A stretch of 48,667 nt of DNA from the NCBI GenBank assembly GCA_030017955.1, contig JASEGR010000011.1, positions 1 to 48,667 on the forward strand, in the 5' to 3' direction. The notes beneath the pieces are model-generated. The model saw nothing but the letters and a program-made list of their open reading frames with translations, searched no databases and was not told the origin of the DNA. Source of the DNA: Candidatus Eisenbacteria bacterium. Its GTDB lineage: Bacteria > Eisenbacteria > RBG-16-71-46 > JASEGR01. The position numbers and the translations under genes are program-made. Positions 7,642-21,410 of the stretch are shown here, piece by piece (position 1 is the first letter of the stretch; each line of letters opens with the position of its first letter).

Positions 7642-8964
7642 ATGACTGCACGGGAAACTGCCCTCAAGATACTCTTCTCAGTTGAAACCAGGAAGTCCTT
7701 TAGTGACATTCTTCTTTCGAAAACGCTGGAAAGAAGCGGGTTTGAAAAAAGAGAGAAAGATTTCGTCACTAATATTGTCCGTGGGACCCTAATCTGGAAG
7801 GGAAAGATAGACTACTTCTTGAACGAGATCAGGAAGGAAGGCATTGACGGACTTCCCGGGTGGATAAGGACGATTCTGCGAATGGGAACCTATGAAATTC
7901 TCTTTCTGGATGGGGTGCCCGCAAGGGCCACAGTTGACGAGGCAGTGAAACTTGCAAAGAAATTCGGGCATCCCGGCACCGCTGGGCTCGTAAACGCGGT
8001 CTTAAGGAAGGTTGCCGCCGGAAAAGATGACATCCGTCTTCCGGAAAAGGAGAAATCACCAACGAAATACCTTGCTATATGCTATTCTCACCCCGAATGG
8101 ATTGTCGAAAGATGGCTCAAGAGATTCGGATTCGATGAGACCGAGGGACTTCTCAAAGCGAATAACGAGAGAACTGGTTTATCAATACGGGTGAATCGTG
8201 TAAAATCCGGAGTTGATGAAATCAGGAGCACGCTTCTGGGCCGCGGGGTGATTGTCGAAGAGGCGAAGTACTCGAGATCGAATCTCACTGTGTCCGGATC
8301 ATTTTCACCGGTTGAGTGTCCTGAGTTCCAGGGGGGTCTTTTCACTATTCAGGATGAGAGCGAATCTCTGGTTGCTTTCCTCCTGGATCCGCATGAGAAT
8401 GAGGTGATCGTTGACCTGTGTGCTGCGCCGGGCGGCAAGTGCACACATATCGCCGAGAATGCTAACGACAAGTGTATCATTGCGGCAGTAGAGCTTTATC
8501 CGCACAGGGTCAAGAAACTTGTTTCAAATGTCAGACGGCTTGGCCTTAGTTCTGTGAGGCCAGTTGTAGCGGATGGGAGGGCCCCTGGCATAAGGAGCGC
8601 CGATAGGGTGCTGGTGGATGCGCCGTGCTCAGGGCTGGGGGTGCTTGGCAAGAGACCGGATGCGCGATGGAGAAAGAAGGAATCTTCGATCGCAAAGATG
8701 TCCGAGCTTCAACTTGAACTTCTTTTCTCCGCCTCATCGATCGTAAGGAAAGGCGGGGTGCTCGTCTATAGCGTCTGCAGCTTTGAGCCTGAAGAGACTT
8801 CGTCTATTATTGAGAGATTCATCCGCGAGAAAAAAGAGTTTTCCCTCGAGAGCGGCGAGGGTTTTCTCCCTGGCGAGGTGCTTGATGAGAGAGGGATCAT
8901 GAAGACATTTCCGCACCTGCATGGAACGGACGGCGCTTTCGCCGCGAGGTTCGTGAGGAACTAG
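7642..8964 (+). CDS. rsmB: 16S rRNA m5C967 methyltransferase RsmB
   Basis: A SAM-dependent methyltransferase of the NOL1/NOP2/Sun (RsmB) family, 440 residues. The N-terminal NusB-like helical RNA-binding domain covers about residues 1-140 (TARETALKILFSVE). The C-terminal Rossmann domain contains the SAM loop LCAAPGGKCTHIAE, the VDAPCSGLG motif with catalytic Cys329, and YSVCSFEPEE with Cys379. These two cysteines sit where E. coli RsmB has Cys325 and Cys375. The start is ATG at 7642, 15 nt after DUF116. It belongs to the def-fmt-DUF116-rsmB run. Confidence 0.96.
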   Translation: MTARETALKILFSVETRKSFSDILLSKTLERSGFEKREKDFVTNIVRGTLIWKGKIDYFLNEIRKEGIDGLPGWIRTILRMGTYEILFLDGVPARATVDEAVKLAKKFGHPGTAGLVNAVLRKVAAGKDDIRLPEKEKSPTKYLAICYSHPEWIVERWLKRFGFDETEGLLKANNERTGLSIRVNRVKSGVDEIRSTLLGRGVIVEEAKYSRSNLTVSGSFSPVECPEFQGGLFTIQDESESLVAFLLDPHENEVIVDLCAAPGGKCTHIAENANDKCIIAAVELYPHRVKKLVSNVRRLGLSSVRPVVADGRAPGIRSADRVLVDAPCSGLGVLGKRPDARWRKKESSIAKMSELQLELLFSASSIVRKGGVLVYSVCSFEPEETSSIIERFIREKKEFSLESGEGFLPGEVLDERGIMKTFPHLHGTDGAFAARFVRN

Positions 8965-9000
8965 TTGAGAAATGTGGAACGCATGGACGTTAGAAAGAGC

Positions 9001-9097
9001 TCCCCTCACCTTGATCCTCTCCCCATTGGGGAGAGGAAGACTAAGGTCTGCGTTTCATCACAGCCTCTCCCCTCGGGGGAGAGGTTGGTGAGGGGGT
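9001..9097. repeat. Head-to-head pair of palindromic repeats
   Basis: Two stems, CCTCTCCCC/GGGGAGAGG at 9016-9036 and again at 9064-9084. The left unit begins CCCCTCACC and the right unit ends GGTGAGGGGG, so the pair is in inverted orientation and the block as a whole is an imperfect palindrome of about 97 nt. The right end supplies purine-rich sequence just before the PASTA gene start. Confidence 0.85.
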
Positions 9098-9107
9098 CGG
9101 GGGCAGT

Positions 9108-9851
9108 ATGACCAGGAAGAAGAAGAGGACGAGCGTGAGATCTTTTCTTCCCTGGCTTATTGGCACTGCCAGCGCTGCATTCCTTGTCGGAGTCATACTT
9201 TTCAACTTCATAGTCATGCCTGCTTTTGTGCACAAGGGTAAAGAAGTTACCGTTCCTGACCTCGTGGGACACAGCCTTCAGGAAGCAGAGAACGCTCTCT
9301 TTGAACGAGGCCTGGCTCTCGGCAAACAGACGACGGCTCACAGTCCCAGCGTGCCGAAAGGATTCGTGATTTCCCAGAATCCGCAGTCCAAAACACTGGT
9401 GAAGCGGGGCAGGAAAGTCAACGTAGTTGCGAGTCTTGGCGAGCAATGGGCGAGCGTGCCGGAGCTTTCCAACGAGAATCTGAGGCGGGCAGAGATTCTG
9501 ATCCGCAAAGCGGGCTTGAAGATGGGAAGCATATCCTACACGCACTCGGACAGCATCGCGAAGGACCTGATTGTCGCTTCCGAACCCGCTGCAGGACGGA
9601 CTGTTCCCCTCGACAGCGAGGTGAATCTTCTTCTGAGCATGGGGCCGTACCAGGCAGCAACATCAGTGCCTGATCTCAGGGGCCTTCCTGTCTCTGAGGC
9701 CGAAAGCAAGGCGAATGGTCTTGGGTTTGTTGTCGTTGTGAAATCACCGGCAGGCAAATCAAGCGGAAAAAGCAAGGTTTACGATCAGAGGCCCAGGCCT
9801 GGATTCGAGGCCTCGGCCGGGGACACTGTGGAATTGATTGTCGGAAAGTAG
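9108..9851 (+). CDS. PASTA-domain membrane protein
   Basis: Encodes 247 residues: a basic N-terminus (RKKKRTS), one membrane anchor (about residues 14-37), and three PASTA domains in the periplasm (about residues 44-110, 111-178 and 179-247). These show typical VPDLVGHSLQEAENAL, VPELSNENLRRAEILI and VPDLRGLPVSEAESKA starts. PASTA domains bind peptidoglycan fragments or beta-lactams and normally hang from Ser/Thr kinases or penicillin-binding proteins; here neither catalytic domain is present. It lies between rsmB and rpe. The role is probably in cell-wall sensing or binding, by inference only. Confidence 0.88.
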   Translation: MTRKKKRTSVRSFLPWLIGTASAAFLVGVILFNFIVMPAFVHKGKEVTVPDLVGHSLQEAENALFERGLALGKQTTAHSPSVPKGFVISQNPQSKTLVKRGRKVNVVASLGEQWASVPELSNENLRRAEILIRKAGLKMGSISYTHSDSIAKDLIVASEPAAGRTVPLDSEVNLLLSMGPYQAATSVPDLRGLPVSEAESKANGLGFVVVVKSPAGKSSGKSKVYDQRPRPGFEASAGDTVELIVGK

Positions 9852-18891: not shown

Positions 18892-20094
18892 ATGAAGAAG
18901 CAGACGCTCGTTTTCAGCAAAGGTACCTGGCTGCCATTGTTGATTTTGTTCCTTGGGACCCTGTGTGCGGCACCTGGTGAAGCGGCAGCGCCTGTTGTCA
19001 CAAACGTCGTCGCTCAACAGATATCGGGCACGGGATTTGTGCGGATCACCTATGATGTGAGTGATGCGGATGGAGACTCGGTCACGGCAAACATTGTCTG
19101 CTCGTCAAATGGCGGTACGACTTTTGACCTGATACCCGTGTCCGTCTCCGGCGATGTCCACCATACAATGCAAGCCGGGGCGGGAAAGCAGATTCTCTGG
19201 AATGCGGCCCTGGACTACCCGGGCAGATACTGGTCCCAGGTCGTTGCCATGGTTTTTGTCAGCGACGGTCCGGCCATCGGCGGCGAGATGGTTTTTGTTC
19301 CGGCGGGCAATTTCACAATGGGGAGCACGAGCGGAAGTTTTGACGAGCAGCCCCAGCACACCGTCTATCTGAACGCCTTTTACATTGACAAGTACGAGGT
19401 GACGAATGCCGATTTCGAAGCCTTCATTAATGCCGGCGGCTATACAGTGGTGGGTTTCTGGAGTCCCGAGGGGTGGAGCGCCAAGGTGTCCGGCGGCTGG
19501 ACGCAGCCGGTATATTGGGGGCAGAGCGCGTATCGCTCGGGTTCCGGGTACCCGGGCTTTCCTGTAATCGGGGTTTCGTGGTACGAGGCTGAGGCATACG
19601 CCAATTTCGTGGGCAAGCGCCTTCCCACTGAAGCTGAATGGGAAAAGGCCGCAAGAGGGACCGACGCGAGGACATATCCCTGGGGAGAAGGGATAGACGG
19701 CACGCGGGCGAATTACTCCGCGAGCGGCGATCCCTACGAAAGCGGTTCAGCCAAGATCACACCGGTTGGTTTCTATGATGGGAGGCTCAATCCCAGTCCT
19801 CCGTTCCAGACAACGAATTCTCCTGGTCCTTATGGCGCCTATGACCAGGCCGGAAATGTGTGGGAGTGGGTGAGGGACTGGTATAGCTCAACATACTACA
19901 GTGTGAGTCCTTCCTCCAATCCATTAGGACCGACGACCGGCTCCTACCGGGTGTTCCGTGGCGGCGGCTGGCTCAATAATACGCCGGACCTTCGCTGCGC
20001 GCGGCGCAACAACTACTACCCTTCGGCCCGGAACCAGCACGTCGGCGGCGGCTACTACGACACCTTCGGGTTTCGTTGCGCAAGGACTCAATGA
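18892..20094 (+). CDS. DGR target: secreted formylglycine-generating-enzyme-like protein
   Basis: This 400-residue protein has a signal peptide (about residues 1-32, ending GEAAA) and a beta-sandwich, fibronectin-like domain (about 34-126). A sulfatase-modifying-factor/FGE-type domain follows from GEMVFVPAGNFTMGS (residue 132) through DKYEVTNADFEAF, GVSWYEAEAYANFVGKRLPTEAEWEKAARG and QAGNVWEWVRDWY to the end. FGE-like domains have a C-type-lectin-related fold and are known DGR targets, where they display variable ligand-binding surfaces rather than act as enzymes. The last 50 residues are the variable repeat, matched to the template at 21125. Export implies a cell-surface or extracellular binding role. 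The ATG at 18892 follows GAGGTGA. avd and reverse-transcriptase genes lie downstream on the same strand. Confidence 0.92.
   Translation: MKKQTLVFSKGTWLPLLILFLGTLCAAPGEAAAPVVTNVVAQQISGTGFVRITYDVSDADGDSVTANIVCSSNGGTTFDLIPVSVSGDVHHTMQAGAGKQILWNAALDYPGRYWSQVVAMVFVSDGPAIGGEMVFVPAGNFTMGSTSGSFDEQPQHTVYLNAFYIDKYEVTNADFEAFINAGGYTVVGFWSPEGWSAKVSGGWTQPVYWGQSAYRSGSGYPGFPVIGVSWYEAEAYANFVGKRLPTEAEWEKAARGTDARTYPWGEGIDGTRANYSASGDPYESGSAKITPVGFYDGRLNPSPPFQTTNSPGPYGAYDQAGNVWEWVRDWYSSTYYSVSPSSNPLGPTTGSYRVFRGGGWLNNTPDLRCARRNNYYPSARNQHVGGGYYDTFGFRCARTQ
19942..20088 (+). repeat. DGR variable repeat (VR)
   Basis: 147 nt encoding residues 351-399 of the target. It aligns codon by codon to the template repeat at 21125-21247 with one 24-nt length difference. 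In my hand alignment 19 of 39 template adenines are substituted, against 9 of 84 other bases. Both repeats keep the blocks CGGGTGTT, CGTGGCGG, CGCTGCGC and CGTTGCGCAA. Variable codons are TAC, CTC, GAC, GCC, CAG, CAC and GTC where the template mostly reads AAC. The repeat ends 3 nt before the stop codon, the usual position. Confidence 0.88.
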
Positions 20095-20562: not shown

Positions 20563-21162
20563 GTGAGAACTTACGGCAATCTTTTTGAGCGCATGGTGTC
20601 GTTCGACAATCTTTACGCGGCCTATCGCGCAGCCCGGCGGGGAAAGCGAGGCAGGCCGGATGTAGCCGCTTTCGAGATGGATTGCGAGGGGAACCTGCTG
20701 GCCATGAGGCAGGAACTTCTCACAGGCACTTACCGCTTTGGCCCTTACCGGGACTTCATCGTAAAGGAGCCCAGGGAACGGCTGGTTTCAGCGGCGCCTT
20801 TCCGGGATCGAATCATGCACCACGCGTTGGTCCGTGTGCTTGAGCCAATTTGGGAGCCGCGCTTCATTCACGACTCTTACGCTTGCCGAAAGGGCCGGGG
20901 GACGCATCGCGCGATTCTCAAATGCCAGCAGTTCGTTCGCGACTATCCCTTGGCGCTTAAGATTGACATCTGGAAGTTCTATCCCACCGTGGACCATGCG
21001 ATCCTCCTTGAGATCCTCGGTCGTCGTGTGCGGGACTCGCGTATCTTGTCCATAGCAAAAAATTTGCTCGCTGTGCGGTCTTGTCGCGGCTGGTCTGCCG
21101 CGCAGGGGGGACGGGTTGATTATGTCCAACCGGGTGTTACGTGGCGGTTCCTGGAACAATAA
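20563..21162 (+). pseudogene. DGR reverse transcriptase, truncated before its catalytic half
   Basis: GTG start at 20563. The first about 170 residues match the DGR reverse-transcriptase pattern: TYGNLFERMVSFDNLYAAYR, RLVSAAPFRDRIMHHALVRVLEPIWEPRF, IHDSYACRKGRGTHRAI and motif A, LKIDIWKFYPTVDHAIL, with Asp135. Recognisable similarity stops near KNLLA (about nt 21072). The frame then runs through about 50 nt of unrelated GC-rich sequence into the template repeat and stops at 21162. Motif 4 (the TSQ region), YxDD and the thumb are absent in all frames before the next gene. The 199-residue frame is far short of the usual 300-450, so it cannot be active alone. A deletion joining rt to the region upstream of the template is the simplest reading; an assembly error is the main alternative. 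Confidence 0.85.
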
Positions 21163-21247
21163 TACAACGAACCTCCGCTGCGCTCAGCGCAACAACAACA
21201 ATCCGACGAACCGGAACAACAACAACGGGTTCCGTTGCGCAAAGACA
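21125..21247 (+). repeat. DGR template repeat (TR)
   Basis: 123 nt, rich in AAC/AAT codons: read in the VR frame it would give runs of Asn (GGSWNNNTTN, RNNNNPTNRNNNNG). This is the hallmark of a DGR template whose adenines are copied with error. It pairs with the VR at 19942-20088. It begins about 50 nt after the point where the reverse transcriptase breaks off and 22 nt after a CGCGGC/GCCGCG hairpin (21085-21102). The open frame across it is probably not translated. Confidence 0.88.
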
Positions 21248-21410
21248 TTTATTGCCGGAGCTCGGTCTCTTGAGGGAGACCGGGGCGGGCGTCAAATGTC
21301 CACGACCCGTTCCCGGCCCTTCGTGGCCGAAGAGAGAAGCACGGGTCGCCTTGTGGTAGGCGGTATGCCGAAGCCCGGCGACCCGATATGCCTGCTTGCA
21401 AGAAGGAGGA
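21125..21410 (+). ncRNA. Predicted DGR template RNA with structured 3' spacer
   Basis: Downstream of the TR lie two strong stems: CGGTCTC (21263-21269) with GAGACCG (21276-21282), and CGACCCGT (21303-21310) with ACGGGTCG (21341-21348), which encloses CGGCC (21314-21318) with GGCCG (21325-21329). In the Bordetella phage DGR the RNA just 3' of the TR is needed for Avd/RT binding and self-priming. This block is in the same place and, unlike the RT gene, is not obviously degraded. The ends are approximate and expression is inferred. Confidence 0.5.

Follow-up and report, generated by a model that had tools for sequence, protein, structure and literature searches.

The locus examined here raises the question of whether a diversity-generating retroelement (DGR) whose reverse transcriptase (RT) gene ends ahead of its catalytic motif is a working element, the remnant of one, or a product of assembly. 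The window, that is, the whole stretch of DNA analysed, is an entire contig of 48,667 bp (C11) from a 97%-complete genome of 3.1 Mb in 248 contigs. The DGR locus consists, in this order, of an FGE/C-type-lectin target gene carrying a variable repeat (VR), the accessory gene avd, a partial RT gene, the template repeat (TR), and a gene of 1652 aa in which no DGR domain was recognised by inspection. Its surroundings are chromosomal, with genes for ribosomal protein L19, RNase HII, and a thiazole-synthase-like protein directly upstream (names by inspection). The locus is very probably an inactivated chromosomal DGR, in which a deletion of about 500 bp within the RT gene would have removed catalysis and left two targets frozen. 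The main point of comparison is L010, the syntenic locus of a genome from the same class and another family (G046), where target, Avd, RT, TR, and a homologue of the window's downstream gene follow one another as they do in the window and the RT carries both SQ and YMDD.

Apart from the RT, the parts expected of a DGR are in place (Table 1). The target has a C-type-lectin/FGE fold with the VR at its C-terminus, the Avd protein scores above the family cut-off and its reading frame contains no stops or frameshifts, and the differences between TR and the local VR (VR1) are strongly biased towards adenines (Fisher p 3e-6). The length by which VR1 exceeds TR corresponds to eight codons. The hairpin that follows TR in both the window and L010 may belong to the DGR spacer RNA; an Rfam search near TR and the downstream hairpin gave no match.

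Table 1. Features of the DGR locus, in window coordinates
Feature	Position	Strand	Basis
Target gene: secreted FGE-sulfatase / C-type-lectin protein, 400 aa	18892..20094	+	PF03781, E 4.6e-59; homologous target in L010
VR1, at the target's 3' end, exceeding TR by 24 nt	19942..20088	+	Differs from TR at 19/39 A and 8/84 non-A sites
Avd accessory protein, intact, 119 aa	20191..20550	+	NF033474, 98.9 bits (cut-off 80); PF22296
5' part of the DGR RT gene, N-terminus through motif A, open frame	20563..21072	+	RVT_1 positions 9-106 of 205; about 63% aa identity to the intact L010 RT
Deletion junction, placed to within several nt; the RT lacks about 500 bp present in L010	21066..21073	+	Left and right L010 homology arms meet
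Surviving RT 3' end, ARCAVLSRLVCRAGGTG and stop, out of frame with the 5' part	21066..21119	+	DNA alignment to the L010 RT C-terminus
TR, adenine-rich AAC codons retained	21125..21247	+	Alignment with VR1; 22/118 positions differ from the L010 TR
Hairpin 3' of TR, GGGTCGCC...GGCGACCC	21310..21390	+	Conserved with L010; fold z -2.5 and -2.4 in the two loci

The open reading frame that holds the RT (20563-21162) is open throughout, and its 5' part retains motif A (LKIDIWKFYPTVDH) and contains neither stops nor frameshifts, as the earlier note had described for the N-terminal half of the protein. The note was equally right that the RT stops after motif A and before YxDD. The RVT_1 profile match ends at position 21069, about halfway through the profile, and the best NCBIfam match of this frame, group_II_RT_mat, covers its profile only up to position 165 of 353. 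The combination of GxxxSQ and YxDD that marks the RT of a functional DGR is thus missing. When the remaining 183 aa of the L010 RT, which comprise SQ, YMDD, and the thumb, were used as a query, no match was obtained on the window contig, and a search of the whole genome returned just one weak match (E 0.1), to a Cas6-RT-Cas1 gene on another contig.

The alignment with L010 indicates what happened to the missing portion. Matches extend to about 21041-21072, jump about 500 bp in L010, resume from about 21066, and then continue to the end of the RT gene, across TR, and past it, with 65-72% nucleotide identity on either side of the gap. The resumed similarity is well above chance, as the 64 nt upstream of TR align to the L010 RT 3' end with a score of 14, compared with a best score of 4 in 2000 shuffles. 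It had been proposed that RT similarity ends for good near 21072 and that the truncated RT is fused to the template region; this does not hold, since the RT's own tail, about 17 codons with a stop codon at 21117-21119, survives immediately before TR. Because L010 homology resumes with the RT 3' end ahead of TR, the lesion is best read as an internal deletion and not as a fusion to TR. In L010 the RT 3' end likewise lies directly before TR and the RT frame reads into it, and TR is also located downstream of RT in the two other complete loci of the class (L011 and L012). The apparent fusion is therefore no more than ancestral spacing, the ancestral layout being one in which the RT 3' end adjoins TR. 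Nor is the join clean with an intact reading frame, as had been supposed: the surviving C-terminus is in a different frame from the 5' part, so that the net loss is not a multiple of three. What remains of the original proposal, namely a deletion of the catalytic half of the RT relative to an intact relative, is well supported by this alignment together with the loss of motif B (SQ), YxDD, and the thumb.

The lesion was further compared with related genomes. Among 47 genomes of the class that were searched for Avd, five (including the window genome) gave a strong match, the fifth match being located at a contig end. In the complete loci L010 (G046), L011 (G021), and L012 (G011), full-length RTs end before TR. 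The truncation is thus private to the window genome among the class genomes compared. The same junction was not found in viral contigs either, where RT relatives are only about 40% identical.

With an intact homologous locus in L010 and the RT lost here, the locus is probably a genuine decayed DGR remnant. The deletion took away motif B, YxDD, and the thumb and left the remaining 3' tail, directly before TR, in a different frame. Since an RT without its catalytic aspartates would be unable to make mutagenised cDNA, TR and Avd would be left idle, and both the local target and a remote target on contig C61 would be frozen at their last variant, drifting like ordinary genes. Both the loss of DGR activity and the presence of the deletion in the organism itself are inferred.

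The remote target was found through a search for FGE genes; an adenine-masked TR search of the genome had returned no other VR at up to three mismatches. It is another FGE gene, the 3' end of which resembles a VR (VR2; G000:C61 about 8650-9346, minus strand; L041). VR2 is 71% identical to TR, with changes at 22 of 37 A sites and 12 of 81 non-A sites, and the gene is likely a remote target of the window DGR or of one closely ancestral to it. In the assembly, the gene's frame shifts just before VR2, so this target appears to be broken too. At four non-A sites VR1 and VR2 agree with each other against TR, which suggests either that TR changed after both were last written or that both VRs changed alike.

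How long the element has been silent can be approached through the non-A sites. In L010, all 19 VR-TR differences fall at adenines (non-A 0/92), significantly fewer non-A differences than in VR1 of the window (p 0.002), and in other DGRs about 1.5 non-A differences per TR-VR pair are observed on average (PMC6642488). In the DiGReF study, truncated RTs with adenine-only VRs were considered very recent, since dead DGRs gather random changes (PMC3521204). By the same criterion, the non-A changes in VR1, along with its 24-nt difference in length from TR, indicate that copying probably ceased some time ago; a similar scatter is seen in VR2. Prolonged decay of the RT 5' part was considered and set aside, as relative-rate and codon-position tests gave no clear excess; the codon-position ratio of this part (0.46) follows nearly the same pattern as those of Avd and the target (0.40 and 0.41). 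Under an assumed indel rate, the probability that this RT part stays intact is about 0.02-0.13 at 4-8% neutral divergence, and its undecayed state would be unusual had it been dead long enough for all of the VR-TR divergence. As neither the RT 5' half nor Avd contains stops or frameshifts, the last copying event may predate the deletion. On the simplest scenario, copying would have dwindled or ceased before the deletion occurred. A precise date for the deletion is out of reach because four-fold sites relative to L010 are near saturation (57-72% different). The description of the deletion as recent in the earlier note is thus borne out in part: the uninterrupted RT 5' half and Avd speak for it, and the ordinary non-A changes gathered by the VR-TR pair speak against it.

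An assembly artefact or a strain mixture is an unlikely explanation. In that case the organism, or the majority of its strains, would have an intact RT, and the contig would reflect either flanks joined by the assembler or a deletion strain present as a minority. The window is one contig of a fragmented assembly, the RT 5' part shows no decay, and intact and degraded DGR variants are known to coexist in the Thiohalocapsa PB-PSB1 population (PMC10907252). Against this, no stretch of the junction recurs elsewhere in the window over more than 10 bp, and only 8 bp are common to the corresponding edges in L010. Misjoins normally require a repeat of at least k bases. No exact repeat above 10 bp, and so nothing long enough for a collapse, was found near the junction within the window, and a k-mer misjoin is therefore not obvious. 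Moreover, the middle of the RT is present on no other contig of the genome, and the non-A differences between VR and TR fit a silent element.

There is very little likelihood that the truncated element still works, with the Cas6-RT-Cas1 protein or an unseen RT making up in trans for what the half RT lacks and TR still being copied. The genome does encode a second RT-containing protein, Avd is intact and TR keeps its adenines, and action of DGRs in trans is known from other genomes (PMC10907252). However, a second DGR RT elsewhere, one of the options in the earlier note, is not supported, the only other RT found in the genome being part of a CRISPR-Cas1 fusion and not a DGR RT; searches of the 97%-complete genome for RT, Avd, and TR yielded no second DGR, with neither a second Avd nor a second TR; and VR1 and VR2 mismatch TR at non-A sites, unlike the in-trans targets of PMC10907252. 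It is just as improbable that the element is useful without catalysis, the RT half and Avd binding TR RNA or another RT copying TR, and that selection keeps the truncation.

Truncated and degenerate DGRs have already been documented (PMC3521204, PMC10907252), and the window holds an ordinary decayed DGR that opens no new mechanism. Inactivated RTs in DiGReF include a stop codon in R. gnavus, an IS insertion in A. marina, and a frameshift in Bacteroides (PMC3521204). Like the window DGR, these cases combine a truncated RT with a retained TR, VR, and target; they differ in that the RT was interrupted by a stop, frameshift, or insertion instead of an internal deletion, and in that their VRs show adenine-only changes, read as very recent loss. 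In Thiohalocapsa PB-PSB1, RT or TR is missing or pseudogenised in degenerate DGR loci, and RT is deleted in some strains (PMC10907252). The loss of RT is shared with the window, but there it proceeded via transposons and MITE-like arrays, and in-trans action by other, complete DGRs was possible, whereas no second DGR was detected in the window genome. The locus can thus serve as a worked example of DGR death, with the catalytic half deleted, the template and accessory gene left behind, and the targets frozen, in which non-A VR-TR differences give an approximate measure of how long ago copying last took place. It also calls for caution, as a DGR called in a draft genome may be inert.

As a side observation, the Cas6-RT-Cas1-like fusion of the window genome is 901 aa long and lies beside a Cas2-like gene (G000:C99 2804-3430, minus strand; L001 475-3180, minus strand). 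By inspection of their domains, the two genes form an RT-associated CRISPR adaptation module.
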